From contig JALGYY010000044.1 in the NCBI GenBank assembly GCA_025782575.1, positions 1 to 64,000 on the forward strand: a stretch of DNA of 64,000 nucleotides. The letters run 5' to 3'. The notes below the pieces were generated by a model. That model was not told the DNA's origin. It saw only the letters and a program-made list of their open reading frames with translations, and made no database searches. Position numbers and translations under genes: made by a program. Below are positions 2,012 through 40,372 of this stretch, one piece after another. How positions within the stretch are numbered: position 1 is the stretch's first letter; every line of letters begins with the position of its first letter. The stretch is from a bacterium. Lineage in GTDB: Bacteria > Orphanbacterota > Orphanbacteria > Orphanbacterales > Orphanbacteraceae.

Positions 2012-2728
2012 ATGAATGCACAGCGCGAATTGTTGCGACATCTCACTCTTCTCGTCCTTCTTCTCATTCCCATTACCTTTGCGTCAGCGGAGGAAGCGTC
2101 CAACTGGGAGCATTCCTTCGACTCGGACGCGTCGTTCGCCTCGAAGTATTTATTCCTGGGACAAGACCTGAGCGAAGGGAAGCCGGTGATACAGCCGGAG
2201 GCGGGTGTCACGGTCAACAACTTCATGGCCCTCGTCTGGCTGAACTACGACGTCGACACCGAAGTGACGAACGAGGTTGACGTGTACTTGCAGTACGGGT
2301 GGGAGCTCGACAAGCTGTCTCTGTCGCCCGGCTATGCGTACTACGAGTACCCGAATCGTGACTGGGATTCATCACAGGAGATCCTTCTGGACGCGTCTTT
2401 GGACGTTCCCGGCGCGCCTTCCCTGAGCTACCACTACGACTTCGATGCCGGTGACGGAAGCTACACGACCCTCGGGTTCGGCCACGAGCTTCAGATCGGT
2501 TCGGCGCCGGTTTCGGTGGGAACCAACCTATTCTACCTGAAAAACTACTACGACGCGACCGGTTTCTCCGCGATGGAGCTCAACACCTCGTACGGACACC
2601 CGATCGGCGCTTCCACGATCACTGGGTCCCTCTCGTACTTCCCGACGTGGAAAAACGGAGACTTTCGTGACGATCTCGCGGTGGAAAGCACCTGGCTGTT
2701 TTCTATCAACATCGCGCAGAGTTACTAG
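2012..2728 (+). CDS. Outer-membrane beta-barrel, TorF/Gcw_chp-like putative porin
   Basis: A 238-residue protein with a signal peptide (LTLLVLLLIPITFASA, cleavage near AEEA). The mature part is rich in alternating aromatic strands (ASFASKYLFLGQDLSEGKP, YYEYPNRDWDSS) and ends in an aromatic strand (FSINIAQSY), as expected of an outer-membrane barrel. The opening 'SKYLFLGQ.LSEGKP..QP' resembles the TIGR02001/Gcw_chp family of putative porins. GGGAG lies about eight bases before the ATG. It is the first gene of the plus-strand cluster, 27 bases before the LysRS-like gene, and could admit the ligand sensed by the downstream binding protein; that link is inferred from position only. Confidence 0.7.
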   Translation: MNAQRELLRHLTLLVLLLIPITFASAEEASNWEHSFDSDASFASKYLFLGQDLSEGKPVIQPEAGVTVNNFMALVWLNYDVDTEVTNEVDVYLQYGWELDKLSLSPGYAYYEYPNRDWDSSQEILLDASLDVPGAPSLSYHYDFDAGDGSYTTLGFGHELQIGSAPVSVGTNLFYLKNYYDATGFSAMELNTSYGHPIGASTITGSLSYFPTWKNGDFRDDLAVESTWLFSINIAQSY

Positions 2729-2755: not shown

Positions 2756-4375
2756 ATGGACCGATCAGCGGACAACCCCTGGTACGTACCACCCCGCGTC
2801 GTGGCTACCGGTTTCACGACGGCCTTTCTCGGTGATGAGCGGCTCCTCCGGGAGTTCATCGTCGGGGATCACGTATGCAATCAGTTGAACGAGCGCGGCG
2901 AGCACGCCGTGCTCTACCTCATCAACGACTCCTACGATCCGCTCCGGGAGCGGCAACTCCGGCTCGGTGTGAATAAGGACGAGGGACTGATCCGGAAATT
3001 CGAGAAGTACTGTGGGTGGCCGATCTCCGAGGTCCCCGACCCTTACGGGTGCCACTCGAGCTACTCCGAGCATTTCACCGCCGCGCTCGTGCACCGGTTG
3101 CACACCCTCGGGATCCACCCGGTGGTAGTCGACTCCTACAGGGCGTACAAGCTCGGTTACTACGCGAACTACATCATGCTGACCTTTGAGAACTACTGGC
3201 AGATTCAAGAAACGCTCGCTACGAATCTGCAGGGTTACTCGATGAAGAACCTATTTCGCCCCGCGTGCACAAACTGCCGGTGCATCGACGCTACGAACAT
3301 CCGGGAAGTGGCGGGGAAGGACGTTCGGTTCAGTTGTGACCGGTGCGGGACCGAGTCTTGCGCGCCGGTGGACGAGATCCAGGGGAAACTGAGCTGGAAG
3401 CTCGACTGTGCCGCCCGCTGGAACATCTACGGGATCGACCTGGAAACGTTTGCTCAGTCCCACGTGGGAGGGCTCGGCACTTTTGAGGTTTCCGAGCTGC
3501 TCTCGCGGAGCTTCTACGGCGGCAGGATCCCGGGGATCGTCAAGTACGGCGACGTGCAGATCACGCGGGAAATGTCCGGTCAAGTGCTGGAACTACTCCC
3601 GCCGCAACTCTTCCGCAAGCTCTTCACGAGCCATCTGAACAGGGACCTCCGCATCACGAAAGACATGGTGGAGACGTTTTGCCAGAAGTCCGAGGTGAGG
3701 CCCGGCATGAGCTACGTCAATTATGTTCGCCAGGAGCTCCCCCACAGTGTACTCCGCGCTGTGAGCAAGAACGAGTCCCCCGACGACGGGCAGATCCCTT
3801 CCAACTCCTTCATCCCTGAGAGCAGCCTCATCGAATACGGGAAGCGTTTCTCGCGCTTCTTCTATCAAAAGGACCATGAAGTCAGGCTGCCCGATCCCCA
3901 CGCACTCTCGTACGCGGATCAGGCAACCATGGACACGGCGTCCCGGCTGATCCGATACGTGCTGTCCACGCGAATCGGCGGCTGTCATGACAGCGAATCG
4001 GCGAAGGCGACGATCAAGACCTACCTTCGCTCACAGAACGCCCCGCCTGAGGTGTACCGGTTCCTGCGGAGAGTGTTCCACCAGTCGCAAGGCCCGAACA
4101 TCGCGTCGATCCTTGCGGTGCTCCCCCTCGAATACCTGGACATGGTCCACCTCTTTCTGAGCAGTACTTCCACGAAGCGCCCTCCCGAGAGACACGGCGA
4201 TCCGAAGACCGGCTCGCCGCCCAGCAAGCAGAGGGGCGCTCGCGTAGTCGACGGCATCGCAACATTCGACGAGGAGGATTCCTCGAAGGCCCCGCCCGCC
4301 CCGAAACCCGTTGTACGGAAGAAATCAAATCTCGATAGCAGGCAGAAACCTTCATCCGTTAGAGGTGACCCATGA
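2756..4375 (+). CDS. Class I lysyl-tRNA synthetase-like protein with degenerate HIGH and KMSKS motifs
   Basis: The 539 residues follow class I LysRS (LysK, archaeal/spirochaetal type) along almost the full length: VPDPYGCHSSYSEHF (93-107) matches the family's VPDP.GCHESYAEHF; a C171/C174-C194/C197 zinc-ribbon pair follows; GKLSWKLDCAARW (210-222) and SHVGG (235-239) match the lysine-pocket strand and the GKDH loop; and LRRVFHQSQGPNIASIL matches the C-terminal helical module. The two ATP-binding signatures are gone: the HIGH region reads AFLGDERLLREF (23-34) and the KMSKS loop reads VQITREMSGQV (267-277). About 75 low-complexity residues (KRPPERHGDPKTGS..., ending RGDP) follow. Activation of lysine is therefore unlikely. 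Ligand binding, signalling or an altered reaction is possible. It overlaps the next gene by ATGA, which suggests coupled translation. GGAGG sits rather far (about 15 bases) from the chosen ATG. Confidence 0.8.
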   Translation: MDRSADNPWYVPPRVVATGFTTAFLGDERLLREFIVGDHVCNQLNERGEHAVLYLINDSYDPLRERQLRLGVNKDEGLIRKFEKYCGWPISEVPDPYGCHSSYSEHFTAALVHRLHTLGIHPVVVDSYRAYKLGYYANYIMLTFENYWQIQETLATNLQGYSMKNLFRPACTNCRCIDATNIREVAGKDVRFSCDRCGTESCAPVDEIQGKLSWKLDCAARWNIYGIDLETFAQSHVGGLGTFEVSELLSRSFYGGRIPGIVKYGDVQITREMSGQVLELLPPQLFRKLFTSHLNRDLRITKDMVETFCQKSEVRPGMSYVNYVRQELPHSVLRAVSKNESPDDGQIPSNSFIPESSLIEYGKRFSRFFYQKDHEVRLPDPHALSYADQATMDTASRLIRYVLSTRIGGCHDSESAKATIKTYLRSQNAPPEVYRFLRRVFHQSQGPNIASILAVLPLEYLDMVHLFLSSTSTKRPPERHGDPKTGSPPSKQRGARVVDGIATFDEEDSSKAPPAPKPVVRKKSNLDSRQKPSSVRGDP

Positions 4376-5190
4376 AAAGCATTCTCTCGACCATCACCGT
4401 TCTCGCTCTCGTCGTCGTCCTTGCCGGGTGCGGCAACCGGTCGGCGTCGACCGTTAAGACCGATGACTCGCTCAAACGCGTCCAGGAGGCGGGCGTTCTG
4501 TACTGGGGCGCGGACGTCATCGGAGGAATTCCATTCGTCTACGAGGACGCGGACAACCCCGGAACCTACATCGGCTTCGAAATGGACATTGCACATGCCG
4601 TGGCGAAGGAGCTCGGTGTGAAAGCGCAGCTCGTCATCAAGGCGTGGGACACCCTGGTTCCCGAGCTCCAAGCGAGCAGCTTCGACATGGCCATGAACGG
4701 CATCGAGGACACCGAGGAGCGGGGGCGGATCGTCGGGTTTTCGAACCCGTACTTCGTCTACTCACAGCAGATCACCGTCAGGAACGAGACCAACGGCATC
4801 ACCAAGCTCGAGGATCTTGTGGGCAAGAAGGTCGCCACTCTTTCCGGAACGGCCGCCGAGGACATTTTGCGTGGCACGTCTGGAATCCAGGTGGTCACGA
4901 ACCCGGAGATCATCTACAGCTACGACCACCTGGAGGAAGGAAAGGTCGACGCGGTGCTGCTCGACACGCCGATCGCCGCCGCCTATGGCGCCACCAATCC
5001 AAAGCTGAAGAACGTGGGCCAGTCGTTCGGGGAGGGCCGCTATGTCATCGCTTTTCGCGGAGAGGACCAGGCGCTCTTGAACGCCGTGAACGAGGCACTC
5101 GAGACGTTGAAAAGGAGTGGAGAGCTGAAGGCGATCTACAAGAAGTTCGGAATCATGGATCAGCATCAGAATAGAATCGGAGTCCTCTAA
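4372..5190 (+). CDS. Amino-acid-type periplasmic binding lipoprotein (SBP family 3)
   Basis: A 272-residue lipoprotein: the signal ends in the lipobox LAGC (Cys20), followed by a solute-binding family 3 domain. Hallmarks are the strand GVLYWGADVIGGIPFVYED, the GFEMDIAHAVAKELGV helix, the AWDTLVPELQASSFDMAMNG segment and the hinge region DLVGKKVATLSGTAAED. Family members bind polar amino acids in the periplasm for an ABC importer, but no permease or ATPase gene is adjacent. Here it sits between a LysRS-like gene and a sensor kinase, so it may present ligand to the kinase instead (inference). AGAGGTGA precedes the start by five bases; the stop overlaps the next ATG (TAATG). Confidence 0.88.
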   Translation: MKSILSTITVLALVVVLAGCGNRSASTVKTDDSLKRVQEAGVLYWGADVIGGIPFVYEDADNPGTYIGFEMDIAHAVAKELGVKAQLVIKAWDTLVPELQASSFDMAMNGIEDTEERGRIVGFSNPYFVYSQQITVRNETNGITKLEDLVGKKVATLSGTAAEDILRGTSGIQVVTNPEIIYSYDHLEEGKVDAVLLDTPIAAAYGATNPKLKNVGQSFGEGRYVIAFRGEDQALLNAVNEALETLKRSGELKAIYKKFGIMDQHQNRIGVL

Positions 5191-6647
5191 TGCGCATGGA
5201 AAGCACACTCAAACGATCCGGTGCGGCGGTAAAAAAGACGGGGACGACCTATGACGTCGTGTCGCCCATTACCGGACGGCCCGTCGATCGGGTGGTTCTC
5301 GCCGGACGTCAGGAGATCGATCGCATTCTGCGAGGTCTCTCCGGTCCGCGAGAACCGGTCACGCGGCGCGATGTTTTCGCCTTTCTCGAAAGGTTGAAAG
5401 ATCAGCTGGCTCTCCACCGGGACTCCCTGGTGGAGAAGACCATGCTCGAGACGGGATTCATTATTGGGGACAGTGCGGAAATAGTGGACGCCGCAATCGA
5501 GTTCCTCGAGGATTTCGAGACCTACACTGAAACCCAGCTCGACAGGAATCAGGTCATGCGGCATTCCTATTCCTCCGAGTGCCGCAGACACATGAGAATC
5601 GCCACCCGGCCGTACCGGTGCGTGGCGGCGGTGGTGCCGCAGAACGCCTCCCTGACGCTCTCTATAGTGATCATCGCATCGGCGCTCCACGCGGGATCGC
5701 AGGTCGTCCTGCGGCCGCCGCTCCAGTGCACGCCTACGGGCGATATTCTGGCGGACCTCGTACGCCGGAGCGATCCACCCGAGCGGTGCTTGGAAATCAT
5801 CAACTGCGTCGCGGGCGACTTCATGGACGCCTGCTGCGCCTCCGACCACGTGGACCTCGTTCATTACATAGGAAGCAACGCCTACGCAATGCGGGTACTG
5901 CAACAGACATTCGCGGCGGGGAAGGTGTGCCTCCTCGACGGACAGGGGAACGGGATGCTCTACGTGGATGGGACGTTCCCGCTCGAGGACGCGATCTCTC
6001 TCATCACTTCCGGCGCCACCCGGTATAACGGCGAAACGTGTACTTCCGTGAACGGGGTGCTGGCCCACCCGGACATCTACGATGACCTCCTCGAAGGGCT
6101 TGTCGAGTCCTTCGCCGCCCTGACGATAGGTGATCCCGCTGACCAGGAGACAAAGATCGGGCCCCTATTCAGCGAGAAGCAGGCGCTCGCCGTCCAAGCA
6201 AGTCTCAAGAATAGCGCCGGGAGTATCGTCTCCGGCAACGCCGTGCGAGGTGCCTATTTCGAGCCCGCGGTGGTGAAGGGCGTAGAGCCCGGTGAGACTC
6301 TCGTATGTGAGGGCGTGTTCGGACCGGTCCTGTGGATACGCCCCGTCTCCGAGCAGGACATCCCGGAGTGGCTGACGGGCAACCGCTTTCCGCTGAGCGA
6401 TACGGTCCTGACCGAGCGCCGTGATCTCATCCGAACATTCGCCAGGAACTCCCCCGCCGCCCGGATTTGCGTGAACGCGGACCCGTCGGTGGAATCGATG
6501 TTCGAGCCGTGGGGCGGCTACCCGCCGAGCGGACTCAACCCTGTGTCGGTATGGATAGAGAAGTACCGGCAGGTATTTCAACTCGACGGTCGCCTGAGGG
6601 ACATCCTCCCCGCGACGTCAGAACCCGGCTCCGGAGCCGCCGTATAG
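5190..6647 (+). CDS. Aldehyde dehydrogenase-fold oxidoreductase, possibly acylating
   Basis: A 485-residue NAD(P)-dependent aldehyde dehydrogenase family protein. The Rossmann part has VVPQNASLTLSIVIIASALHAGSQVVLRPP (PQN and the cofactor-binding loop), and HYIGSNAYAMRVLQQ matches the FTGS segment. The nucleophile is Cys284 in NGETCTSVNG. The usual general-base glutamate of the LELGGKN motif is replaced: the aligned stretch is LLDGQGNG (248-255), with Leu249 at the Glu position. Loss of that Glu is typical of CoA-acylating or other atypical members, so hydrolytic oxidation is doubtful. The C-terminal oligomerisation region (PWGGYPPSGLNPVSV) is present. It is translationally coupled to the binding lipoprotein upstream and only four bases from the sensor kinase downstream. 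Confidence 0.82.
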   Translation: MRMESTLKRSGAAVKKTGTTYDVVSPITGRPVDRVVLAGRQEIDRILRGLSGPREPVTRRDVFAFLERLKDQLALHRDSLVEKTMLETGFIIGDSAEIVDAAIEFLEDFETYTETQLDRNQVMRHSYSSECRRHMRIATRPYRCVAAVVPQNASLTLSIVIIASALHAGSQVVLRPPLQCTPTGDILADLVRRSDPPERCLEIINCVAGDFMDACCASDHVDLVHYIGSNAYAMRVLQQTFAAGKVCLLDGQGNGMLYVDGTFPLEDAISLITSGATRYNGETCTSVNGVLAHPDIYDDLLEGLVESFAALTIGDPADQETKIGPLFSEKQALAVQASLKNSAGSIVSGNAVRGAYFEPAVVKGVEPGETLVCEGVFGPVLWIRPVSEQDIPEWLTGNRFPLSDTVLTERRDLIRTFARNSPAARICVNADPSVESMFEPWGGYPPSGLNPVSVWIEKYRQVFQLDGRLRDILPATSEPGSGAAV

Positions 6648-6651: not shown

Positions 6652-8532
6652 ATGCGCCGAATACGATCATACGCCTCTATTCGAACGAAGGTGATCCTCA
6701 TCGTCGCCGGGACGCTGATCTTGGCGATTGCCGTCATCGCGTTCTTTGTTCGCGGCCTCGTCTCCGAAAGCATCATCAACAACAAGCGGACTACCGTCGA
6801 AATCCTCACGTCTTCGTTCGTTCACGACGTCAAGTTCGACTTCGATAGTCAGGGACACGAGAACGTCAAGAACACGATCGCAAAGTACGTTACCTATTAC
6901 CGGATCATCCGTCAGATCTCGTTCTACGATGCACAGTCCGTAAACATCGCCGACTCCGATCGGGAGATGCTCGGAACCGAGACCGACGACCAGGACATCA
7001 TTGCCGCCATCAAAATGGCCAAGCCGAGCCTGAACATGACGTATCCCGACCGGAGTAACCTCGGGATCCGGTCAATCGCCCCCATTCTCAAGGGTTCCAC
7101 CATCGTGGGAGCGGTCGTCCTCGATGTATCCATCAATGACGTGCAGACTACGATCTCGGCGATCAACAGCCGCATCGCCCTTATCCTCATCCTCACGGTT
7201 CTCATCGCCTCGGGGCTATTGTTCATCCTGCTCCGGGGGTTCATTCTCCGCAGGATCAGCACTCTGACGGCGGTTACGCACCAGGTGGCCGCCGGAAACT
7301 ACGATATTCGCGTCGAAGACACTCGGGGTGACGAGCTCGGCGAACTGGCGGACTCCTTCAATACAATGACGTCCGATCTTCGAAGGTCCAAGGACGAAAT
7401 TGACAGGCACAACAAACATCTGGAGGAAATGGTTCGCGAGGCGACCAAGCAGGCGAACAACGCCTACGACAACTTGAAGAGCGCCCAGAGCCAGCTCATT
7501 TTGAACGAAAAGATGGCGTCTCTCGGTGTGCTTATCGCAGGCATTGCCCACGAGATCAACACTCCCGTGGCTACCATCCTCAATCTCTCCAGGAATCTCA
7601 AGCGAAAGATCGACCTCCTTCCGGCGGCACTGGAGGGTTTCGGGAACGATCACCAAGCGCACAATCCACGGGCGGTGGCGCTACTGCAGGAATTCATCCG
7701 ATCAGCACGGCTGCCGTGCGGGCCGCTCTCAAGCAAGAAGGGAAAAGCCATCGAGGCATTGCTCGAGCAGAACGGCATCGAAGACAGTCGGCGTGTCGGC
7801 GGAGTGCTGAAAAAGCTGAACTTCACCGATCCGGAAAGAATCGCGGAAGCGGTGGACTGCTTCCGCAACTTCGCGTTTCTCTCGGTCGCCGATTCGATCG
7901 GGAGCATCGCCCAGGCGATGTCCATCTCGGAGACGAGCTCCCAGAAGATCACGGAGATCGTTCGGGCGCTGAAGTACTACGCGTACACCGACCAGGCCAA
8001 GGTCGGGAAGATCCAGATCAACGAGTCGATCGAGACCGCCCTCGTGCTTCTGAGGAACCGGCTAAAGAACACGATGAGGGTCACGACGGACCTCAGCGAA
8101 GATCTCCCGACAATCCAATGCACTAGCGAGATTCATCAGGTGTGGACCAATCTCCTGAACAACGCCTATGACGGCATCCGAGAAATGGGGCCCGACTGTT
8201 CCGGCGAGATTTGCGTTCGGACCGAGCGGAGCGGAGACCGCATTGTGGTGACCGTGGAGGACAACGGGGTGGGGATCGAGGACAACAAGATCGAAAAGAT
8301 CTTCGATCCTTTCTTCACGACGAAAGACATCGGCAAGGGCACTGGGCTCGGCCTTTCCATCGTCTCAGGCATTATCAAGAAGCATCACGGTACGGTCCGC
8401 GTGCAAAGCAAGAGAAGCAGGACTGTTTTCGAAATTTCCCTTCCTATCGACTTGCGGGTGAAGAAGAACACCGAACAAGAGGCGGCCCAGCCCACAAGTG
8501 AACCGACGCTGTCCGTAGACAGCACTAGATGA
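6652..8532 (+). CDS. Membrane sensor histidine kinase (periplasmic sensor, HAMP, HisKA, HATPase)
   Basis: 626 residues. TM1 is about 13-36 and TM2 about 176-198, enclosing a roughly 140-residue extracytoplasmic sensor of the Cache type. HAMP follows (RISTLTAVTHQVAAGNYDIR), then a coiled coil and an H-box with GIAHEINTP (His300). N-box NLLNNAYDGI, G1 VEDNGVGI, F FDPFFTTK and G2 GKGTGLGLSIV are intact, so it should autophosphorylate. About 200 residues separate H-box and N-box, including an added helical stretch near 330-420 (KKGKAIEALLEQNGIED), more than the usual spacing. It is likely cued by the binding lipoprotein or by the ligand itself, and partnered with the receiver-kinase hybrid that overlaps its stop. 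Confidence 0.9.
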   Translation: MRRIRSYASIRTKVILIVAGTLILAIAVIAFFVRGLVSESIINNKRTTVEILTSSFVHDVKFDFDSQGHENVKNTIAKYVTYYRIIRQISFYDAQSVNIADSDREMLGTETDDQDIIAAIKMAKPSLNMTYPDRSNLGIRSIAPILKGSTIVGAVVLDVSINDVQTTISAINSRIALILILTVLIASGLLFILLRGFILRRISTLTAVTHQVAAGNYDIRVEDTRGDELGELADSFNTMTSDLRRSKDEIDRHNKHLEEMVREATKQANNAYDNLKSAQSQLILNEKMASLGVLIAGIAHEINTPVATILNLSRNLKRKIDLLPAALEGFGNDHQAHNPRAVALLQEFIRSARLPCGPLSSKKGKAIEALLEQNGIEDSRRVGGVLKKLNFTDPERIAEAVDCFRNFAFLSVADSIGSIAQAMSISETSSQKITEIVRALKYYAYTDQAKVGKIQINESIETALVLLRNRLKNTMRVTTDLSEDLPTIQCTSEIHQVWTNLLNNAYDGIREMGPDCSGEICVRTERSGDRIVVTVEDNGVGIEDNKIEKIFDPFFTTKDIGKGTGLGLSIVSGIIKKHHGTVRVQSKRSRTVFEISLPIDLRVKKNTEQEAAQPTSEPTLSVDSTR

Positions 8533-8543
8533 GGAGACCGGCT

Positions 8544-9818
8544 ATGAAAACTCCGTCTATCGGGAAGCCTCGTGAGAGCTACGTTCTCTGCGTGGACGAC
8601 GACGCGGACTTCCTCAAGTCCCTCGAGTTTTTCCTTGCCGAGCAGGTGAACGACTGCATGGATGGCAACTGTTGGTACCGGTTTCTCTTCTTGACCGATC
8701 CGTTCGAGGCGCTCGAGCTCATCGAGGAGCTCACCTGGAATGCCGAGAGCATCGCCATGATCATCAGTGATCAGAAAATGCCGGAGATGGAAGGGACCGA
8801 GTTCTTCCTCAAGGCTCGGAAAATCGTGGGAAACACCGTTCGGATTCTCCTCACAGGACACGCCGGCATGGACTCCGCCATCGATGCTATTAACGAGAAC
8901 CTGCTCGACAAGTACCTTACGAAGCCCCTGGATAGCGATCACGACTTCGTAGTCAGCGTCAAGCATCTGCTCCAAAAATTCGAAATGCAGAACACCATCG
9001 AGCAGCAGAACGAGACACTGCGGGGCTGGGCCAAGGAACTGACCGAGGCGAACGCCCGCCTCAAGATCTTGGACCGCCTGAAGGGCGATTTCCTCTCTTT
9101 CCTCGCGCATGAGCTCCAGACTCCTCTCTGCATCATGTCGGCGATCCAAATGCTCGAACAATGCACCGACGAAGAGGAGAAGAAGCAGATCGTGGCCATC
9201 ACCCGGGACGGCTACGAAAGATTGGCCGAGTTCGTGCAAAGGGGCGTGGAATACTTCAACTGGCTCGCGGTCGACCATGTGGACCTGTCGAAGACGACGG
9301 ACCTCTCACTCGCGGTCCGTGAGGTGGCGAAGAGCATCGAGGTGCTGTCGCGTCCCGGTGTCGATCTCCGAATGACTATCCCCGACGAACCGTGCGTCGT
9401 CCCCGGAGATCACGAGCATCTGGAGGAGGTCATCCGGATCCTGCTCAAGAATGCTGTGAAATTCTCCCCGGACGAGACGTTTATCAGCATCGACCTCCGG
9501 CCGGCCCACGACCACGTGACGCTCACCCTGGTGGACCAAGGAGAAGGGTTCCCCTCTGAATTGGCCGAGGAAATCTTCCGCCCTTTCACGATTGGGAATA
9601 CCCTGAACCACAGCCGGGGCACCGCGCTAAACCTGGCGAAGGCGAGCGACATCGTGAAGGCGCACGGAGGGCGCATCCGGGCGGAGAGCGCCGGGGGCGG
9701 CCAGGGGGCAACCTTCGAAGTAGAGTTCGCCCTCGCGGCGCCGGAAGTGGACGGGATGACCCCGGGGGAGGAGCTTTCACCCGATAACGGAGGCGACTCG
9801 AACTCGCAGCACGATTAA
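8544..9818 (+). CDS. Receiver-histidine kinase hybrid
   Basis: Soluble 424-residue protein. An N-terminal receiver domain (VLCVDDDADF, acceptor Asp76 in IISDQKMP, LLTGH, YLTKP) is joined by a coiled coil (residues about 140-170) to a HisKA domain with FLAHELQTP (His189) and an HATPase with LLKNAVKFSPDE, VDQGEGFPSE and a weaker G2 region (GTALNLAKASDI). There is no DNA-binding output, so the signal must leave by another phosphotransfer step or protein contact. The ATG at 8544 with GAGGAG eight bases upstream is preferred. An upstream ATG at 8529 overlaps the kinase stop (ATGA) and would add five residues. Last gene of the plus-strand cluster. Confidence 0.88.
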   Translation: MKTPSIGKPRESYVLCVDDDADFLKSLEFFLAEQVNDCMDGNCWYRFLFLTDPFEALELIEELTWNAESIAMIISDQKMPEMEGTEFFLKARKIVGNTVRILLTGHAGMDSAIDAINENLLDKYLTKPLDSDHDFVVSVKHLLQKFEMQNTIEQQNETLRGWAKELTEANARLKILDRLKGDFLSFLAHELQTPLCIMSAIQMLEQCTDEEEKKQIVAITRDGYERLAEFVQRGVEYFNWLAVDHVDLSKTTDLSLAVREVAKSIEVLSRPGVDLRMTIPDEPCVVPGDHEHLEEVIRILLKNAVKFSPDETFISIDLRPAHDHVTLTLVDQGEGFPSELAEEIFRPFTIGNTLNHSRGTALNLAKASDIVKAHGGRIRAESAGGGQGATFEVEFALAAPEVDGMTPGEELSPDNGGDSNSQHD

Positions 9819-10056
9819 TTTCAAAGGATTACGGTTTACCCCCGCTTCATTTCGATTCTAGCGGACATTTGGTCCGTCCGGACGATTCTTCTAAAGTCCT
9901 TGCCATCCCACGCTGAAACTTCGACGGAGAATTGGAAATGCCTATGCTCGGCCGCGCCGAGCACACTTTTTCGGAGGGACTCCCGAAATGAACCGCCAAA
10001 GCCTCCTGTCCCTCTCAGAAACTCGTCCGCGTTGGCACGCTTGACGTTACGCCGAT

Positions 10057-10890
10057 CTAGTCTTGAGTTACATGCAAATATCGACACGTCACTATCACGC
10101 TGGAATGCCCGAGCAGGTCCCTCACGTGATGCAACGGCGTACCATCTTCCAGTGAGAGTGTCGCTGCTGTATGTCGGAGCGCGTGAGCGTTCACCCGCTC
10201 GATCCCAGCGTGTTCACAGTTCTTCCGCAGGATGTAGTCGATCCCAGCGACGGTGAGGCGGTTGCCTGTGGTAGAGGTAAAGAGCGGTGCATCGGCAGCA
10301 GCCCCGCGACACACTCGCTTGTGAGCCCGAAGCGCATTAGCAGCATCGCCCATCAGCGGCACGAGCCGGAGCTTACGCCCCTTGCCGTTCACGCGAAGCA
10401 GCACGCGGTGCGAGTGCCAGTTCACATCCCCCCAGTCGAGCCCACAGACTTCGCCGACCCTAAGACCGCCGACTCCCATGCAAGTAAGGAGGGCGAGATC
10501 CCGCCGTCCGATGTGGGAGCGTTGGTCTGGTGCACGTAGGAGCTTTCGGAGCTGGCGGGCTGTTAGGAATTTGGGCGCAAAACCGCCGGTGCCTTTGGGG
10601 GCCTTGAAGCCGCGCGCCACGTCCACAGGCAGGATCCCCTGCTCATGCGCGGATCGAAGGAACGCCGCGGCCACCGTCGCCCGCCACCTTACCGTGGTAG
10701 GACTCAGCCCCCGCTCCCGCAGGTGCGCCACGTAACGCTCACACGTCCCAACACAGGGGGAGTCGTCGTCCAGCCAGGCCAGGAAGCGGGTCAGCTCGCG
10801 TTCGTAGGCAAGTTTTGTGGAAGGTGCATCACGGCGGAGTAGATATAGGGGTAGCGCGTCCAGTAGTTGTGGATCTTGTACAGCAGGCAT
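10057..10890 (-). CDS. XerC/XerD-like tyrosine recombinase
   Basis: A 277-residue phage-type integrase. The N-terminal SAM-like core-binding domain covers about 10-95 (YERELTRFLAWL, LSPTTVRWRATVAAAF). The catalytic domain carries GLRVGEV (Arg I), the beta-hairpin Lys (NGKGRKLR), HALRHTAAT (His/Arg II), LLGHSS (His III) and the nucleophile in CRYLHVTQD at the C-terminus. All catalytic residues are present, so it should be active. The ATG at 10890 has GGAGG five bases upstream; a GTG at 10914 has none. It faces away from the six-gene cluster and lies at the left edge of the mobile island. About 240 bases downstream (9819-10056) contain no gene I can support. Confidence 0.88.
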   Translation of the reverse strand: MPAVQDPQLLDALPLYLLRRDAPSTKLAYERELTRFLAWLDDDSPCVGTCERYVAHLRERGLSPTTVRWRATVAAAFLRSAHEQGILPVDVARGFKAPKGTGGFAPKFLTARQLRKLLRAPDQRSHIGRRDLALLTCMGVGGLRVGEVCGLDWGDVNWHSHRVLLRVNGKGRKLRLVPLMGDAANALRAHKRVCRGAAADAPLFTSTTGNRLTVAGIDYILRKNCEHAGIERVNAHALRHTAATLSLEDGTPLHHVRDLLGHSSVIVTCRYLHVTQD

Positions 10891-10956
10891 GTGCGCCTCC
10901 AGGTTTGGGTTCACACATGAATGGCTTCAAGTCGGGGAAACTGCAAGTGAAAGATC

Positions 10957-12135
10957 CTAGATTCGTCCGCCTTCAACGAAACTCCGAAATCGTTTGGGAA
11001 AGTCGAAAGCTTGTAGCTTCTCAGATACGTCTAGATCCAGTGTCTTCAGAACTGCTATCTGGGTCAAATGCCCGAAGAAGTCCATATAATCAACGAGTGA
11101 GGAGCGCCGATCATCGCCGAACTTCGATACAGGGATCTCTTTCATCCAGTCCTCGGCCCTCTTCCGATCAATGGGCAAACGGCCAGCATGGGTCAGTTGA
11201 TTGCGAAGCATTTGGAAGACGTTCAACTTCTCAAGGGCTTCGTTACAAACTATTCCCGGCCACAACTCATTTATCACCCTTGGAACGACCTTTGACTGAA
11301 TTCGTTCCTCCGGTCCAAAGAGGCGGGCGCACATGAACTCCCAGAGCATTGTATGAGAGAGAAAGCGTGCCTCCATGTTTTGAATGTTTGCGTTATTGCG
11401 AAGAACCTTCAGGTGAAATCCATCGGAGAATCGCGAAAGCCATTCGGGATTCTTGATCTTGCATGAAATCTTCTGAAGAAGTTCTACTAATTCGCGCCAT
11501 GAATCGACAACACACGTAAGTTTGTTGGACCCCGTTGTTGGATAGTTGGAGTAAGACCTTCGTGATTCGAGCGCCCAGTTCATCCCCGTCAGAATCGACC
11601 CAAGTAGAAGAAGGTCCTCGATGATCTTTAGCTTTCTAATTCGCCGATACGAGAAAGCTTCTATCGTGCACGCTCCACTGAACAGCCTAGAGTCCTCTTG
11701 GCACCCATCGAATTCCACGTACGCATTGGGATGGTTCTGCCTGACACTCCGTCTCATCATTGCAGAAGTGTAAGTTAGGGGTCGTCGCATCGTCGGGGCC
11801 GTTCGAGAGTGAAAGACATATCGGTCAACTTCGAACGGAGGAAAGTACTCTGAGTCTATTAATGAAATATTGACGAGATTAAGACGACGCACTCGTTTGC
11901 CTCGAATGGTAGTGGCCATGTCGACCGGTAGATTTCCAAATGCCACTGGATCAATGTAGCATTGCACTTGACGAACAGCAAAGGCGATCGCATTGTTGAA
12001 GCCATCTTCCCCGCAGCACCTACCAATCATCTTGGAGTGGTCGCCCACACCTAACACATCCCCGCCAGCGGATACGCCTGGCTTGCACACAGCCATTGCC
12101 CATACGTCACGCATTCTAGAATTCAGGGCTCGCAC
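10957..12135 (-). CDS. HEPN-domain protein, putative RNase effector (ApeA-like layout)
   Basis: 392 residues; unfamiliar N-terminal half, helical C-terminal half. The stretch EARFLSHTMLWEFMCARLFGP followed by NVFQMLRNQLTHAGRLP carries the HEPN signature R-N-x3-H (RNQLTH). HEPN proteins are commonly metal-independent RNases in abortive-infection and toxin systems. ApeA has a similar plan of unique N-terminal domain plus C-terminal HEPN. The start is uncertain: GTG at 12135, or ATG at 12114 or 12096, none with a clear ribosome binding site. It follows the membrane-protein/MBL pair on the same strand after 66 bases and may form one operon with them. AT-richer and less biased codon use than the flanking host genes suggests transfer. 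Confidence 0.55.
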   Translation of the reverse strand: MRALNSRMRDVWAMAVCKPGVSAGGDVLGVGDHSKMIGRCCGEDGFNNAIAFAVRQVQCYIDPVAFGNLPVDMATTIRGKRVRRLNLVNISLIDSEYFPPFEVDRYVFHSRTAPTMRRPLTYTSAMMRRSVRQNHPNAYVEFDGCQEDSRLFSGACTIEAFSYRRIRKLKIIEDLLLLGSILTGMNWALESRRSYSNYPTTGSNKLTCVVDSWRELVELLQKISCKIKNPEWLSRFSDGFHLKVLRNNANIQNMEARFLSHTMLWEFMCARLFGPEERIQSKVVPRVINELWPGIVCNEALEKLNVFQMLRNQLTHAGRLPIDRKRAEDWMKEIPVSKFGDDRRSSLVDYMDFFGHLTQIAVLKTLDLDVSEKLQAFDFPKRFRSFVEGGRI

Positions 12136-12201
12136 CCGATGAATTTCGCTTCAGGGGAATTGCAGGCAGATTAGACCACCTTCGAAAAGCCCTTGTTGTG
12201 A

Positions 12202-12873
12202 CTAGGCTTCTGGATAGCTGATAAAGACTTCGTATGTGTATTGCCGGTAGAATTTGAGATACCTGTAGAACATGCCCACAGAGACGACGAGCAGGGCGCA
12301 GGCGATTGTGATCATCGACCCCTCTACATGGCCACCCCCCTTTTGAATCAAGTCTCTTGCAAGCAAGAAGCTGCCGCCGACCAAAGTAGCCATGCAGATG
12401 TTCCTACAGAATCCATATGAGTTAAGAAAGACGCCCAATCTCCCATAGACGGCCGCGTCCCTCTTCACTACCGAGTGACAATGGAGGAACAAATCCCTCC
12501 CCGCTGTCTTGATCCCCGCTCTTTCCGCGGAAATTTGGAGGATTCTCGTTTGAGTGTTTCTCGGAAGCGGTGAAAAATACCCGGGGAATATGTGTCGGAG
12601 CCAACCGGCTCTAACCTCACCAAACAGCAGGTCCTCTGAGCGCCCCAGGCCCCGGCAGACTGCCCATCTCTGAAGAACAAAACCAGAAACTCCCGCCACC
12701 AATTGGCCAACCACATACGATCCGACCGCCCAGGCGAAACCGATGATAAGGCTTGGCTCTTCCGTGGCAACGCTCCAAAGGCCTAGCGAACCGAAGAGAC
12801 ACGCAATGAGAACAAACCCCGAGGCGATGTATCCGAAAAAGTCATAGGCGGTAAATGGCAGTTTATCAATCAT
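12202..12873 (-). CDS. Four-helix membrane protein of unknown function
   Basis: A 223-residue protein with two N-terminal membrane helices (about 10-32 and 40-66, the latter AWAVGSYVVGQLVAGVSGF), a basic cytosolic segment of some 85 residues, then two C-terminal helices (about 155-172 and 183-203) and a tail KFYRQYTYEVFISYPEA. I do not recognise the family. It begins two bases after the stop of the MBL-fold gene, so the pair is translationally coupled. A membrane protein paired with a phosphodiesterase- or nuclease-like MBL protein and a HEPN protein suggests a defence or signalling module in which it could be a membrane effector; that is inference from context. Confidence 0.6.
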   Translation of the reverse strand: MIDKLPFTAYDFFGYIASGFVLIACLFGSLGLWSVATEEPSLIIGFAWAVGSYVVGQLVAGVSGFVLQRWAVCRGLGRSEDLLFGEVRAGWLRHIFPGYFSPLPRNTQTRILQISAERAGIKTAGRDLFLHCHSVVKRDAAVYGRLGVFLNSYGFCRNICMATLVGGSFLLARDLIQKGGGHVEGSMITIACALLVVSVGMFYRYLKFYRQYTYEVFISYPEA

Positions 12874-12875
12874 AG

Positions 12876-13709
12876 TCAGGCCAGCAACCCACCACTATCC
12901 GAATACGGCACTATTGAAACTTGTTTGCCCGGCCTTTGGTAAATGTAAATCCTGCCGTCCTTCCGAGTAGTAAGCACTTTCCGCGGGTCCTTGTCTGACC
13001 CACAGTTGATCCCGGATGCGTGCTTTCCATAGTCGATGCATTGAGTCTCGTGCACAATCTGCTTGTCAGAGATGATAACGACCTCCGGATGACAGTAGCT
13101 GAATACTTCTGCGCAATAGCCATTTGCACGTCCATGGTGCGATGCGACAAAGATCTTCGTGCGTTCTAGCTCCTCTTGAAACTCGCGTCTTCGTAGAAGC
13201 GCTTTCCAGCCAGCTTCCTGCAAGTCGCCCGGGAATATTATGTGAATATCCTTGTAGTGCAAGAACGTTACAAGGCTAAGATCGTTGAGGTCTTGAAAGC
13301 TCGGATACGAGTTATAGAAGAGATGGATTTCAGCCCCCATCGCGCTTGAAACCTCTGATTGATCATTTGCATAGGTGGTCATCATCGATATGGCCTCACG
13401 TGTTCCATTCCCTACCCCCCCCGCTTCCTGCTTTGTCTTGATGATATGTGTTTCCGGGATGGTCGGATTGTACAAGAAAGCATCGATTTTGAAGCGCCGC
13501 CGTAGGTTTGGTAAGTCACTCGCATGATCTTCGTCGAAATGCGTCAAGATCAGTCCCTCAATACGATTGCATCCGCTCGCTCCTAGGAATCTTGACGGTC
13601 GAAATCCACTCTTCACACTATGCCCGCAATCGACTAAGAGGGCATTCCCATTGTCCGCCTCCACCAGCGCACAGAAGCCATGCTGGACATCAAAGACAGT
13701 GATCACCAT
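12876..13709 (-). CDS. Metallo-beta-lactamase-fold hydrolase (ComEC-like catalytic domain)
   Basis: A soluble 277-residue MBL-fold protein. Seen in order: VFDVQHGFCALVE, LLVDCG, the metal motif LTHFDEDHASD (H-x3-DH type), FPGDLQ, ASHHGRANG and VVIISDKQ, the arrangement found in the catalytic domain of ComEC/Rec2 and stand-alone relatives that act on nucleic acids or phosphodiesters. The ATG at 13709 is chosen because GAGGA lies seven bases upstream; an upstream frame extending to 13775 adds 22 residues with no family match. No secretion signal. It is coupled to the membrane protein gene downstream. A role in degrading or sensing foreign DNA or a nucleotide signal is plausible but unproven. 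Confidence 0.8.
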   Translation of the reverse strand: MVITVFDVQHGFCALVEADNGNALLVDCGHSVKSGFRPSRFLGASGCNRIEGLILTHFDEDHASDLPNLRRRFKIDAFLYNPTIPETHIIKTKQEAGGVGNGTREAISMMTTYANDQSEVSSAMGAEIHLFYNSYPSFQDLNDLSLVTFLHYKDIHIIFPGDLQEAGWKALLRRREFQEELERTKIFVASHHGRANGYCAEVFSYCHPEVVIISDKQIVHETQCIDYGKHASGINCGSDKDPRKVLTTRKDGRIYIYQRPGKQVSIVPYSDSGGLLA

Positions 13710-13824
13710 CGTTTTGTCCTCTGAGAACCTTTCCACTGAACCGCTTCCTATTTCAAGACAACGCTGCGAGCTCATTTGTCATCCGTTCGTATCGTCTGAA
13801 TTCTGCCACAGGGTGGCTCCTTTA

Positions 13825-14049
13825 TCAATAAAGTCCTGCCGGCAGATACGCCCTCGCCTTGCTCGCAGCCACAGCGATCGCATCGGCATAGTCGTCATGC
13901 GCATGCGCACGGGTAGGATGCCCCACACGGGACTGCCCGCCAGGCAGCAGCTCCAGCTCCAGGCTTCGCAGCTCTTTGAGCGACACCTCGTGGTCGAGCA
14001 GCTCAATACGCTGATCCAAGATCATACTGCGGAGCGTGCCGAACGTACT
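13825..14049 (-). pseudogene. C-terminal remnant of a second terminase large subunit
   Basis: Just past the stop of the intact terminase, and in the same frame, the sequence encodes TFGTLRSMILDQRIELLDHE, then SLKELRSLELELLPGG and AHDDYADAIAVAASKAR before a stop. It aligns with the end of the intact terminase (FGLLRNLIINQKIELLDHK, SLRELRGLEVELLPGG, GHDDYADSLALAV) at clearly less than full identity. It has no start of its own. It is therefore the tail of a related but different terminase, left behind when most of the gene was replaced by recombination, not a recent tandem duplication. Confidence 0.85.
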
Positions 14050-14061
14050 TGCAGTTTATTC

Positions 14062-15486
14062 CTACCCTCGCCCATTCAAGCGGCTCGGCCTCCACGTCCC
14101 GGATATTTTCATCTTGCTAAGCTGGTGGACTGCTAGCGCAAGTGAATCGGCGTAATCGTCATGCCCCTGCCGCCCATGACCAATTCGAGCGTTCCCTCCG
14201 GGGAGAAGCTCGACCTCAAGCCCCCGAAGTTCCCTTAGGGAATCCTTGTGATCCAACAGCTCTATCTTTTGATTTATGATGAGGTTTCGAAGTAATCCAA
14301 ATATGTCAGCTTTTGAATTTTGAGTAAATGTCACTTCCTCAAATCGTATCCCGGCGGCCCCAAATGATTGCTTTAGTGGCTCGGCCCCGAATTGATCTCC
14401 GTATACTCGACCGACACCAAAACGCTGAAGCACCGACTTGATTTCTGGAATCACGAACCCCAATCTAACGGGCTCGCTCCGACTCCCCTGCCAGCCCTGA
14501 AGATGATCCACGACCACCATGCCGGTCCTTCCCTCTCTATGGGATATGGCGAACGTAAATTTGTCGCCCTTGAATGCTGCATCGATCGCAGCACAGTATC
14601 GATTTCTGCTCGGGGAGACGGAAGTCCTTCCCTCAACGACGCATGCTTGGATTGCTTCAGCCGGAATGAAAGCACTCACCGCCTCCGAGAATTCAGCCCC
14701 GTACTCACGTCGATAGTTTTCGGGGTCGCGCTTCTTCTCATTCTCAAGGAATCGCTTGGGGACAGCCGGATTCATGAGCATCGTTGGTGCGTGCCACACG
14801 AGAACATTCTTATCCTTCTTCCGGTTTCGCCAAGCGTCGTACAAAATCCCGTTCATGGCGTACGGCGAGGAGGCCATCACGAGTTTCGCATTGGGGAAGG
14901 TCGCCATCGAGGGACGAACGGCACGGAGTACTTCAACATCCGGATTGGCGTATCCCTCCGTCCACCAAAATGCTATCTCGTCACAGATGCAACAGACAAC
15001 CGAGAGACCACGTATGGATCGGAACGATGCCGGATGGATCGAAATCGTAATCTTGTTGTCGAGATCGATCTCGTTTGCCCGTGATGAATCGACATGGCCG
15101 GAGAGGATAGGACTTCTCTCGATCTTTCCTTCGATGTAGCCGCGAACAACCTTTGCTTGCCGCATATTTTGCGCGAGCAGCAAGACGACGCCTCGTTCAC
15201 CGGCTGAGAGTTTGTGCTTTCGAAAGAAGGATTCGTAAAGTGCGATGTTCGCTGCAATCCGGTCCGACTTCCCGGCCCGCCTTCCGCAGATGAATGCCCC
15301 CTCTCGAAACTCCTTTGGCTTCCGTGGAGGGAAACCCGTGCAACGACGAACAAGTGCAGCCTGGTCGCTTGGGATCGGCAATCCATAGAGAGTTCGAAGT
15401 CCCGCCTCTTGGGCCGGCGAGAGATCATCACCGAAAATGTTTGGGTCCTTAATCGCCTGAATGATGTCAATCGTTGGAGTTGTCAT
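14062..15486 (-). CDS. terL: Phage terminase large subunit (ATPase/nuclease)
   Basis: 474 residues. ATPase: Walker A ICGRRAGKS, adenine-side segment LLLAQNMRQAK, Walker B CCICDEIAFWW, coupling motif VMASSPYA. Nuclease (RNase H fold): AIDAAFKGD, the acidic DQFGAEPL and terminal HDDYADSLA supply the metal-binding aspartates. The protein packages DNA into procapsids. Its 5' end overlaps the gene upstream by 20 bases. Notably no portal, protease or capsid genes follow: the next genes are a terminase-tail remnant and then the MBL/membrane/HEPN set. Confidence 0.93.
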   Translation of the reverse strand: MTTPTIDIIQAIKDPNIFGDDLSPAQEAGLRTLYGLPIPSDQAALVRRCTGFPPRKPKEFREGAFICGRRAGKSDRIAANIALYESFFRKHKLSAGERGVVLLLAQNMRQAKVVRGYIEGKIERSPILSGHVDSSRANEIDLDNKITISIHPASFRSIRGLSVVCCICDEIAFWWTEGYANPDVEVLRAVRPSMATFPNAKLVMASSPYAMNGILYDAWRNRKKDKNVLVWHAPTMLMNPAVPKRFLENEKKRDPENYRREYGAEFSEAVSAFIPAEAIQACVVEGRTSVSPSRNRYCAAIDAAFKGDKFTFAISHREGRTGMVVVDHLQGWQGSRSEPVRLGFVIPEIKSVLQRFGVGRVYGDQFGAEPLKQSFGAAGIRFEEVTFTQNSKADIFGLLRNLIINQKIELLDHKDSLRELRGLEVELLPGGNARIGHGRQGHDDYADSLALAVHQLSKMKISGTWRPSRLNGRG

Positions 15487-16084
15487 CTATCTCACTCTGC
15501 CCCGAACTTCGGACCTCAAGATACTCTGCTAGCGTCGGAGCGATCTGCTTGTCTTGCCGGCGACTTGCGATCGCCTGACGGAGTTCCGCCGTCGTTCTCG
15601 TCATTGCGTTTTCCACAGTCGTCATTCGTTCCGCCACATTTCTCACCTTTCCAGCACGAAGGTCGATCAGTCCCGCCACCTTGAGATAGTTCTCACACTG
15701 GAATAGGCGAGACCGATGACGCACGATCTGTTCTACGAGGATGAGGTCCGTTGCGCGTGGAGCCTCCCCTGTTTCTTCCCGGATCTGATCAAGTAATTGC
15801 TCCGCCCAACGAACTTGCCGGCGAGTTAGGATCGGGCAAACCTGGCCCTTCCGTCCCTCGGGACAGGCGAGCTTGTGGCGACGGTCCTTCTTCTTAATGT
15901 GGTACAAAGGGCAAACGGAGCAGTTGAGCGAGGTCGGAATCTCCACAACATCCCCGCTGTGGAATCCATGGGTAACCCCGGTCCGGCCCTTAGGCTTTAG
16001 CCCCTTCGGGGCGCGGATCACAACCTCGGCAGGGAGTTCGATGGAGAGGTCCTGTAGCGTTTCGTTCTCATCTATAAAGTTCAT
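15467..16084 (-). CDS. Probable terminase small subunit with cysteine cluster
   Basis: About 205 residues. It lies directly upstream of and overlaps terL, the usual place for the small terminase subunit, which recognises packaging-site DNA. The N-terminal half has a Cys cluster (LNCSVCPLYHI, LACPEG, VCPIL) that could bind zinc; the C-terminal half is helical (ATDLILVEQIVRHRSRLFQ, NVAERMTTVENAMTR) and ends with an acidic tail. The function is assigned from position and helical character, not from a recognised family. The ATG at 16084 is preferred over a GTG at 16114; GGGGT lies close upstream of the ATG. Confidence 0.5.
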   Translation of the reverse strand: MNFIDENETLQDLSIELPAEVVIRAPKGLKPKGRTGVTHGFHSGDVVEIPTSLNCSVCPLYHIKKKDRRHKLACPEGRKGQVCPILTRRQVRWAEQLLDQIREETGEAPRATDLILVEQIVRHRSRLFQCENYLKVAGLIDLRAGKVRNVAERMTTVENAMTRTTAELRQAIASRRQDKQIAPTLAEYLEVRSSGQSEIDDNSND

Positions 16085-16721
16085 CACGCACCCCGATATC
16101 TCCGGATTAGGCACAAACGCCTAGTGTCTGGCCGAGAAACGGCCTTGTTTGCGGCAATTGGATCGTGCATGGGGTCAGCGTGCGAAGGATCGTGCAATGG
16201 GCAAACGTACGGCAAATCAAAGGCTTAGCGAGACTGGGCCCATAACAAGCCCGCTCCCGGAGTTGTGAAGAGGGGCTTGGGTCTGCCCCGAACTCGCCTC
16301 GGATTTCCCCTTGATTGTAACTGATTCGCTTCGGATTCGCTCGATTATGCAGCGATTTCGTACAGTCAGAATGGTGACCACAGGAAGGGTCACATTGGGG
16401 CTCATTCAGAGAAACCACCAGTTCCTCGTAGTCCTAATGGTATCAACGCCTTACAGCGGCCCCACGTGGCCGAACCCGCCGAAGGCTTAGCCCCGGATTC
16501 GTGCCACAAAGGCAGTATGGCGAGATAGCTGAGGTTGGAAGAATCAGGGAACAGTTATTGATCGGTTGTCAGCGAGTTGGGCTTCCATGCGCCACCCGGC
16601 CTTCGGCTCCGGACGTCCGTAGGGATCCGTATCTCAGATTCGGATCCAGGCAGCGTCATGGTATTTTCTCATTGTGGTCCAGTAGCAGAATCTAAGGCGA
16701 GTCTTCAGGAGGTTTGTATCC
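16085..16721. promoter_or_regulatory. Divergent control region of the mobile element
   Basis: About 640 bases without a supported gene, lying between the terminase genes (minus) and the recombinase/replication arm (plus), where a phage-like switch or origin would sit. It contains direct repeats: GGATCGTGCA at about 16159 and again at about 16186 (27 bases apart), and clustered ATTCGCT-type motifs near 16320-16345. AGGAGG at about 16708 is the ribosome binding site of the recombinase gene. I could not identify a clear sigma-70 promoter. Confidence 0.35.
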
Positions 16722-18506
16722 GTGAAACGCAAGAACCCGCGTCAAAACACTACGAAGAAGGCGGGCCTCGCAGCCGCCATAGAGGCTTGGGCGCAGGCGA
16801 CCACGACAAAGGGGGCTCGAAAGAGGCAACTGATTCGAATGAAGACAATAGCAGTGACCGAGTTCTTCGCTTCGGTTGGTAAGGACCTTGCCCAAGTGGA
16901 ACCGGTGAACGTGAAACAGTGGCAGAAAGACCTCGAAGGGTGTGGCCTTGCACCATCAACCGTTTCTGCGAGGATCTCGCGGGTCTCCTCGTTTTACCGA
17001 TGGGCATTAAAGGATAGGCGTTACTCAGGGGTGCTATCCTCGAACCCTGTGCAGCCAGCGCGCATCAATGCTCGACTACCACACAATAGTAAGAGTGCGA
17101 ACGATCTCACAGAGAAAGAACTGCGTCTGTTTACGCGTGCTCTGTTTGAAAGAGCCGGTACGGGGGATCTTGCCGCAATTCGCGATTTTACCATCTGGCT
17201 TTTCCTGATCCTCACCGGTAGAAGGCAACAGGAGATACTCAATCTCCTTTGCAAGGACCTGACGATGAACGGAACCATCATTCTTCGGTTCCTCGACAAG
17301 TGTGGCCGGTCCGAAATGGTCGAACTAAAGAGCGCCGTACCCCGCTCCTGGCTCACCTGTTACCTCAGCAACTCGGCGCGGCTCGAAGCAATGACTCGCT
17401 CCTCTCCTCTGTGGATTCGACATGACTCGGCGGCGCAAGGGAAGGAGCAACCATTGTCGGGTCGTGCCTTAGCAAGTCGTCTTCGATCTGTCGCTAAGTC
17501 CGTGGGGATTAGCGGATTCAATACTCGACGAGCGCGTGACATTTTTGCCAGATTTTTTGAGGAGGACGAAGGGAGTGTTTCTTTGCTAGATGCGCTCGGC
17601 TGCCTGAAATCACGCCGGAACCGGACCTACGGAGATACCATCACTGTTCACCGCGATCGACACTCCGATCAAATTGCTTACCGCCTGGGAATGGGGGGGA
17701 AGAAGGGCCCAACGCATGCTCGGCTAGAGACCGATGCCGCAGAACCCACGCCTGACCTGCCGCTGGAAGATCTCACAATTAATGATCTTGTCACCATGGA
17801 GGAATCTCAAAAGAGGCGTTTTCGAAGACGCGCCCTCATCAATCAGTGGAGATCTCTTCGCGTCAGGCTAGGGGCCTCAAATCCAAGTGGGAGCATGGAA
17901 GAAGTATTGGAGGACAGGAGAATCGACGACGTTGCCCTTTCCCACGTTGAGACTCAATTCCAGCTGGCAACGGTTGCGCTCACCAGAATCCCAAGGAACG
18001 ACTATGCGCTACTGACGATCGAAGGGCTCTGCTATTCGACCGCCACATTCTTGTACAACCTTCCCTCTTCGAAAATAGACGAGCACTTCTCAAGTAGCTT
18101 GTCGGATATTGCCATTCGGTTTCTTTCGGCGTATCCCGAATCCATTGACAAATTCAACAGCAGCGCCAGCGACGCGCTCCAGGACTTCCTTGTGTCCACA
18201 ATGTATGCCTTGTCGTCAGGACTTAAGCCCTCTCACATAAGAACACACGTGAAACCTAAGTGGAAGGCACTACAGGCACTCGCCGTTACGCTTGGCCTCA
18301 AGGGATCGCAAACATCCGACGCCCATATCAAGAGTCTCGTCCTGAGTGCAAGGCGGACTGAATTACCCGAGAGCCCCCACTCGGAACAAAGAGAACGCAG
18401 ACTTGAAATTGGAAACTTTCAGAACGTACTGATGATTTCTGGGCTTGGTGGCAATCTCTTCGACTTTGATCGACCAGACTGGCTCCCACCGGTCAAAGAG
18501 TCCTAG
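16722..18506 (+). CDS. Tyrosine recombinase-like protein with degenerate catalytic residues and long C-terminal extension
   Basis: 594 residues starting at GTG, with AGGAGG nine bases upstream. Residues about 15-95 form an integrase core-binding domain (QWQKDLEGCGLAPSTVSARI, FYRWALKD). The catalytic domain has LILTGRRQQEILNL (Arg I), a possible hairpin Lys (FLDKCGRSE), FNTRRARDIFARFF where HxLR would be (His to Asn, Arg kept), LDALGCLKS where LGH would be (His to Cys) and RNRTY for the nucleophile. Arg, Arg and Tyr remain but two catalytic histidines are replaced. About 290 further residues, mostly helical, have no domain I recognise. It could be an integrase of unusual type or a regulatory/structural derivative. 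It heads the plus arm of the element. Confidence 0.65.
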   Translation: MKRKNPRQNTTKKAGLAAAIEAWAQATTTKGARKRQLIRMKTIAVTEFFASVGKDLAQVEPVNVKQWQKDLEGCGLAPSTVSARISRVSSFYRWALKDRRYSGVLSSNPVQPARINARLPHNSKSANDLTEKELRLFTRALFERAGTGDLAAIRDFTIWLFLILTGRRQQEILNLLCKDLTMNGTIILRFLDKCGRSEMVELKSAVPRSWLTCYLSNSARLEAMTRSSPLWIRHDSAAQGKEQPLSGRALASRLRSVAKSVGISGFNTRRARDIFARFFEEDEGSVSLLDALGCLKSRRNRTYGDTITVHRDRHSDQIAYRLGMGGKKGPTHARLETDAAEPTPDLPLEDLTINDLVTMEESQKRRFRRRALINQWRSLRVRLGASNPSGSMEEVLEDRRIDDVALSHVETQFQLATVALTRIPRNDYALLTIEGLCYSTATFLYNLPSSKIDEHFSSSLSDIAIRFLSAYPESIDKFNSSASDALQDFLVSTMYALSSGLKPSHIRTHVKPKWKALQALAVTLGLKGSQTSDAHIKSLVLSARRTELPESPHSEQRERRLEIGNFQNVLMISGLGGNLFDFDRPDWLPPVKES

Positions 18507-18695
18507 GCGCTTCCTTCCCAGATCCGATCGCTGCGACTCCTCCCATCTAAGAACCCAGCACTTCAAACTTCCTCGTGCCCCGCGAAGTGGTGGCCGATAT
18601 ACCAACCCATTACACCCGACCATCCTTAGTAGGTTCTTCATGACACCACGTGAGTGCTCAAGATGCCTCAAGCGTAGAACAAGGACTATAAAGAC

Positions 18696-20910: not shown

Positions 20911-20925
20911 GCGGCAACGTCGGCA

Positions 20926-23352: not shown

Positions 23353-23402
23353 ACTGCGAGAAATCCTTTGGACACCGAACCGCAGAGGGGAGGATTGTCG
23401 AA

Positions 23403-40339: not shown

Positions 40340-40372
40340 ACGGCCTTGTTCGTACATGACAGGAGAAGTTAG

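Follow-up and report, generated by a model that had tools for sequence, protein, structure and literature searches.

What use does a bacterium have for a class I lysyl-tRNA synthetase (LysRS) homologue whose ATP-binding signatures are missing and which is encoded among genes for signal transduction? The question is raised by an open reading frame at positions 2756-4375 (plus strand) of the 64,000-nucleotide stretch analysed here, hereafter the window, which an earlier note had described as a pseudo-synthetase coupled to an amino-acid-binding lipoprotein. The best explanation of the locus as a whole, to which we give a probability of roughly one half, is that an adenylation-dead LysK may have been taken over to bind the ligand in a two-component and cyclic-di-GMP system that responds to an amino acid.

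The reading frame is intact (539 aa, start ATG, GC3 = 0.79) and is a full-length homologue of class I LysRS (LysK/LysRS1). Pfam tRNA-synt_1f (PF01921) matches residues 31-272 with an E-value of 1.5e-44 and 152.8 bits (cut-off 27). The score against NCBIfam lysS_arch is 140.1 bits, below the equivalog cut-off of 147.55, and an orthologue at locus L158 scores 138.9 bits against the same model. LysRS1 of P. horikoshii (1irx) is the only solved structure with a sequence match (E 9e-22). An AlphaFold2 model, for which LysK relatives and two orthologues served as alignment input, has a mean pLDDT of 79.4, exceeding 90 across most of the catalytic half, and its final ~60 residues are predicted to be disordered. 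Searched with Foldseek, the model retrieves 1irx first (E 3.9e-22, 528 columns, TM 0.60-0.63), while CysRS and GluRS rank below it.

The gene lies in the following arrangement:

2012..2728, plus strand: TorF/Gcw_chp-like porin (PF09694/TIGR02001, weak and below cut-off)
2756..4375, plus strand: class I LysRS (LysK) homologue, predicted to be adenylation-dead, which opens a conserved five-gene block (PF01921)
4372..5190, plus strand: family 3 amino-acid-binding lipoprotein (SBP) with lipobox LAGC (PF00497, E 3.8e-33)
5190..6647, plus strand: aldehyde dehydrogenase (ALDH)-superfamily protein of an unusual subfamily (PF00171, E 3.7e-59)
6652..8532, plus strand: membrane histidine kinase with HAMP, HisKA, HATPase and a weak Cache match (Pfam; orthologues 52-53% over the full length)
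8529..9818, plus strand: response regulator fused to HisKA-HATPase (Pfam; receiver orthologous, at 58-60%, to RR-GAF-GGDEF-EAL proteins of the relatives)
9945..9970, plus strand: terminator-like hairpin followed by TTTTT, downstream of the operon (consensus match only)

The porin gene ends 27 bp upstream of the LysK-like gene on the same strand and is likely to be co-transcribed with the operon in the window. The stop codon of the LysK-like gene overlaps the start of the SBP gene (ATGA at 4372-4375), as the earlier note had observed. No ABC permease was seen among the operon genes of the window or of the two related loci L157 and L158, and for this reason the SBP looks sensory. Among the Pfam matches on the two-component genes, HATPase_c, HAMP and Response_reg lie above cut-off and those to HisKA are weak; on inspection of the sequences, the kinase and the regulators appear to retain their phospho-accepting His and Asp. 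The operon includes a two-component system, as both a histidine kinase and receiver domains are present. TorT/TorS and LuxP/LuxQ are sensory kinases dependent on an SBP, and there too the gene of a periplasmic binding protein adjoins that of a membrane histidine kinase, and transporter genes are missing; unlike them, the operon of the window combines a family 3 amino-acid SBP with LysK-like and ALDH-like partners. A mobile element or prophage remnant lies beside the operon as an island at 10057-25613, with a tyrosine integrase, a terminase-like ORF, a PrimPol-AAA protein, a D12 methyltransferase and a large serine recombinase.

A kinase-based search around a second centre, genome G270, led to orthologous operons in two genomes of one family from another phylum (G388 and G386; loci L157 and L158). 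In both, genes for the LysK-like protein, the family 3 SBP lipoprotein, the ALDH, the Cache-HAMP kinase and the response regulator lie on one strand and in the same order as in the window, so that the sensory operon is conserved across at least two bacterial phyla and the survey of neighbourhoods suggested by the earlier note recovers the SBP, ALDH and kinase genes beside each LysK-like gene. Identity between the operon proteins of the window and those of the relatives ranges overall from 50 to 67% (LysK-like 50-51%, SBP 65-67%, ALDH 56-59%, kinase 52-53%, receiver domain 58-60%). The genes upstream of the operon differ in L157 and L158, and the porin of the window is not found there. The regulator of the relatives is an RR-GAF-GGDEF-EAL protein, of the cyclic-di-GMP type, whereas the receiver of the window is instead fused to a second kinase; the regulator gene of L157 is followed by an HDOD-GGDEF gene. 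Genome G270 has a related kinase with an RR-GAF-GGDEF-EAL regulator and no LysK-like, SBP or ALDH genes within 15 kb, which indicates that the kinase can work without these partners. The same genome contains, at L146:9752-14032, two tandem genes with very similar RR-GAF-GGDEF parts, one of them preceded by a truncated HDOD; this is a partial duplication.

The LysK-like family has three members (window, L157 and L158), all from draft genomes, and these were aligned with LysK homologues from about 100 genomes. The elements in which the window protein departs from LysK or agrees with it are the following:

2813..2857, plus strand: HIGH replacement at residues 20-34, FTTAFLGDERLLREF where LysK has ITPSGPIHIGNLREV (alignment)
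3266..3349, plus strand: Cys4 zinc ribbon (C171, C174, C194, C197), retained (alignment)
3386..3421, plus strand: lysine-pocket element KLSWKLDCAARW, with W214 retained and C218 at a position that is Trp in LysK
3452..3463, plus strand: GKDH replacement AQSH at residues 233-236, His retained, Gly and Asp lost
3545..3583, plus strand: former KMSKS loop at residues 264-276, YGDVQITREMSGQ, shortened, with the motif gone and Y264 retained

HIGH, GKDH and KMSKS are all absent. The PSGxxHIGN stretch of LysK reads TAFLGDERL in the window protein (HIGH region FLGDERLL), and the signature itself (HIGN) reads DERL; H and G are missing in all three members, while the corresponding H27 and G29 are present in 44 of the 44 other LysKs compared. 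In about 105 other LysK homologues, a regular expression finds HIGH in most, and the exceptions inspected carry it in variant spelling. The MSSSKG loop is cut down to REMSGQ by deletion of Ser, Ser and Gly, again in all three members. Within the ATP-motif windows, chosen from general knowledge of class I synthetases, 0/11 near-invariant positions (common to >=90% of LysKs) are retained in all three family members, vs 26/38 at other positions of the catalytic domain (Fisher p 4.6e-5). Near the replaced sites neither HIGH nor KMSKS was found intact, and together with the 1irx-like fold of the model this upholds the description, made in the earlier note, of a full-length class I LysRS homologue devoid of both motifs. 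The alignment indicates that the ATP site is lost coherently as a unit, and the protein should not make lysyl-adenylate or handle ATP as class I synthetases do.

The lysine pocket and the zinc ribbon both remain, as had been proposed. PDPYGCHSSYSEHF, KLSWKLDCAARW, D58/D61 and Cys 171/174/194/197 are retained, and the LysK residues kept include D58, D61, P94, P96, Y103, Y131, K211 and W214, followed by D217, R221, W222, E230, H236 and the four zinc-ribbon cysteines. Wang and colleagues are said to have found in 2006 that B. burgdorferi LysRS1 recognises lysine through G29, T31, W220, H242 and Y269; we take these to be G19, T21, W214, H236 and Y264 of the window protein, with which G27, T29, W218, H240 and Y268 of 1irx align. 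These putative lysine-contact positions are invariant in 3/3 family members, and the amino-acid pocket being kept, the LysK-like protein should still accommodate an amino acid there.

The loss of the ATP site, the retention of the lysine pocket and the presence of the sensory operon in at least two phyla together suggest that an old synthetase has been re-used as an amino-acid sensor. A binding-only sensor is the simplest account because the constant partners are the genes of a kinase and of an extracytoplasmic receptor for amino acids. In the proposed mechanism, a class I LysRS paralogue would have lost adenylate formation and survived as a protein that only binds. The SBP lipoprotein outside the cytoplasm and the LysK-like protein inside it would read an amino acid, lysine or a close derivative being the most likely, and both would feed the Cache-HAMP histidine kinase and its response regulator, through contact with the kinase and control over it. 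In the relatives the target of the regulator would be cyclic-di-GMP, and in the window the regulator has an additional kinase domain, while the ALDH-like protein would probably make, remove or sense a related aldehyde. The ligand is probably lysine or a relative of it. A more elaborate version, in which a single kinase compares lysine or a derivative across the membrane by means of the LysK-like protein, the SBP and the modified ALDH and sets cyclic-di-GMP accordingly, is offered tentatively.

There is a precedent for such a conversion in another synthetase class. HisZ, the regulatory subunit of ATP phosphoribosyltransferase, is a catalytically inactive, non-adenylating HisRS paralogue which binds histidine to mediate regulation (PMC10795190), and it regulates its partner via the amino acid (PMC10795190, PMC9437257). 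At the level of sequence, the LysK-like protein is similar in that adenylation residues are lost and the amino-acid pocket is retained; HisZ, however, belongs to class II as a paralogue of HisRS and partners an enzyme, whereas the LysK-like protein has the class I LysRS fold and is encoded beside two-component and cyclic-di-GMP proteins. Membership of the HisZ family was rejected on account of this difference in fold, and HisZ is thus the closest precedent that the protein resembles in logic, being unrelated in descent. PoxA/EpmA, LysU and LysX, the known LysRS paralogues with non-translational roles, are class II LysRS derivatives which have retained adenylation. These three are described as LysRS-derived in the portion of PMC9437257 consulted, which names no class I paralogue of LysRS among them (PMC9437257). 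In the open-licence literature, no report was found of a class I LysRS converted to a role in binding alone.

The adjacent ALDH bears on whether the LysK-like protein might still be an enzyme. In the three operons (window 5190-6647, L158:11379-12821, L157:10448-11890) the ALDH retains its catalytic Cys (GETCTS) and the Asn of PxN (PQN), and shares the substitutions K192R, E268D and E399G (ALDH2 numbering), at the positions of the NAD-binding Lys, the general-base Glu and the nicotinamide-ribose Glu. No other ALDH above 29% identity to that of the window was found in the genomes searched with the ALDH query. In the LysK-like protein, TGFTTAFLGDER is a new motif at the HIGH position, invariant across the three members; residues 17-29 (ATGFTTAFLGDER) are identical in all of them and are followed by xLREFI, Cys218 is likewise common to all three, and 52 clade-specific substitutions are fixed. 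It could be argued from these fixed features, and from the intact catalytic Cys of a neighbour altered in the same way in every operon, that Cys218 and TTAFLGDER make up a new active site, which would work together with the ALDH-like protein on an acyl intermediate or an amino-aldehyde. There is nevertheless no known catalytic motif, the sequence alone suggests no substrate, and the operon also encodes signalling proteins, so that we consider a new enzyme unlikely.

A second alternative is that the LysK-like protein recognises tRNA-Lys instead of free lysine and signals when the tRNA is uncharged, much like the HisRS-like domain of GCN2. The prediction includes a helical C-terminal region, and the match to the 1irx fold spans 528 columns. 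The earlier note had held that this helical module aligns clearly with LysK, which is not borne out: it is weakly conserved, and 0/8 of the C-terminal near-invariant positions checked (W365 and Y437 among them) are retained in all three members. The description as a pseudo-synthetase stands, as far as the sequence evidence goes, for the loss of ATP motifs, the retained pocket and the operon with SBP and kinases, and falls for the C-terminal likeness. With these near-invariant residues lost or mixed and the amino-acid pocket retained, tRNA sensing is disfavoured and appears rather improbable.

A functional LysRS of noncanonical type, whose nucleotide site is unusual, would explain the retained zinc ribbon and lysine pocket, and is very improbable given the joint loss of all three class I ATP motifs, the deletion of the KMSKS loop and the normal class II LysRS (609.7 bits) encoded by the same genome. 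Since that enzyme is present, the LysK-like gene is not needed for translation; no second class I LysRS above the family cut-off was found in the genome.

Phylogeny and substitution rates concern the fate of the gene itself. The three family members form a monophyletic clade (SH-aLRT 100) on a stem of 3.2 changes per column, as a check proposed in the earlier note had asked; the degenerate clade with its invariant replacement motif, and the ALDH with altered conserved residues, go beyond what that note had foreseen. A comparison of the two relatives gives a dN/dS of 0.11 for the LysK-like gene, vs 0.09, 0.10 and 0.13 for SBP, ALDH and kinase, which places the degenerate gene under purifying selection equal to that on its neighbours. 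It is neither solitary nor decaying, so that neither of the two observations which the earlier note had named as refuting its reading (intact motifs close by, or a lone pseudogene in decay) was made. Decay of a LysK copy without function, to which the lost catalytic motifs and an in-frame stop in the L157 orthologue might point, is in effect refuted by the conserved orthologues, with the dN/dS, the GC3 of 0.79, the invariant motif and the operon shared between phyla speaking against it, and has a negligible probability. That stop is a TAA near the C-terminus of the G388 reading frame (L157:9380-9400), where L158 reads through; the frame beyond it is open and conserved, and a recent nonsense mutation or an assembly error may be responsible.

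The sensor proposed here is known from three genomes. Six other genomes of the window's phylum lack the LysK-like gene, the SBP and a close match to the response regulator, and a query with the LysK-like protein over about 290 genomes returned LysKs and no orthologue. Strict scans with 8-residue patterns of genome and viral contigs retrieved no relative, the true orthologues differing at those 8-mers, and a scan of genome contigs with a LysK-mixed alignment returned LysK homologues with HIGH, the inspected exceptions being misses of the regular expression. Plasmid and phage collections yielded no family member, and Rfam found no T-box or lysine riboswitch in the region of the window or in either relative. 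An anti-phage defence system was rejected, as none of the PADLOC models matched any of the five operon proteins (0 families). A LysK homologue at L069:9887-11398 retains HIGH and has MHSTGG in place of KMSKS on a long branch, and is a possible second altered LysK. Elsewhere in the window, positions 38540-41503 hold a MutL/GlmL-family protein, of a kind which usually accompanies B12 aminomutases, followed by a 376-aa protein without a Pfam or NCBIfam match.

In relation to class I LysRS (LysK, LysRS1; PF01921; 1irx), the LysK-like protein shares fold, length, lysine-pocket residues, the PDPxGCH and KLxW elements and the Cys4 ribbon, and differs in lacking HIGH, GKDH and KMSKS, in altered N- and C-terminal near-invariant residues, in its place in a signalling operon and in its score below the NCBIfam equivalog cut-off. 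The family therein constitutes a clean natural experiment, the ATP site having been erased and the lysine pocket kept, and a synthetase relic is tied to two-component and cyclic-di-GMP signalling. The small operon offers a direct test of an amino-acid-sensing role. If the proposal is true, a class I aminoacyl-tRNA synthetase would here have given rise to a cytoplasmic amino-acid receptor of a new kind.
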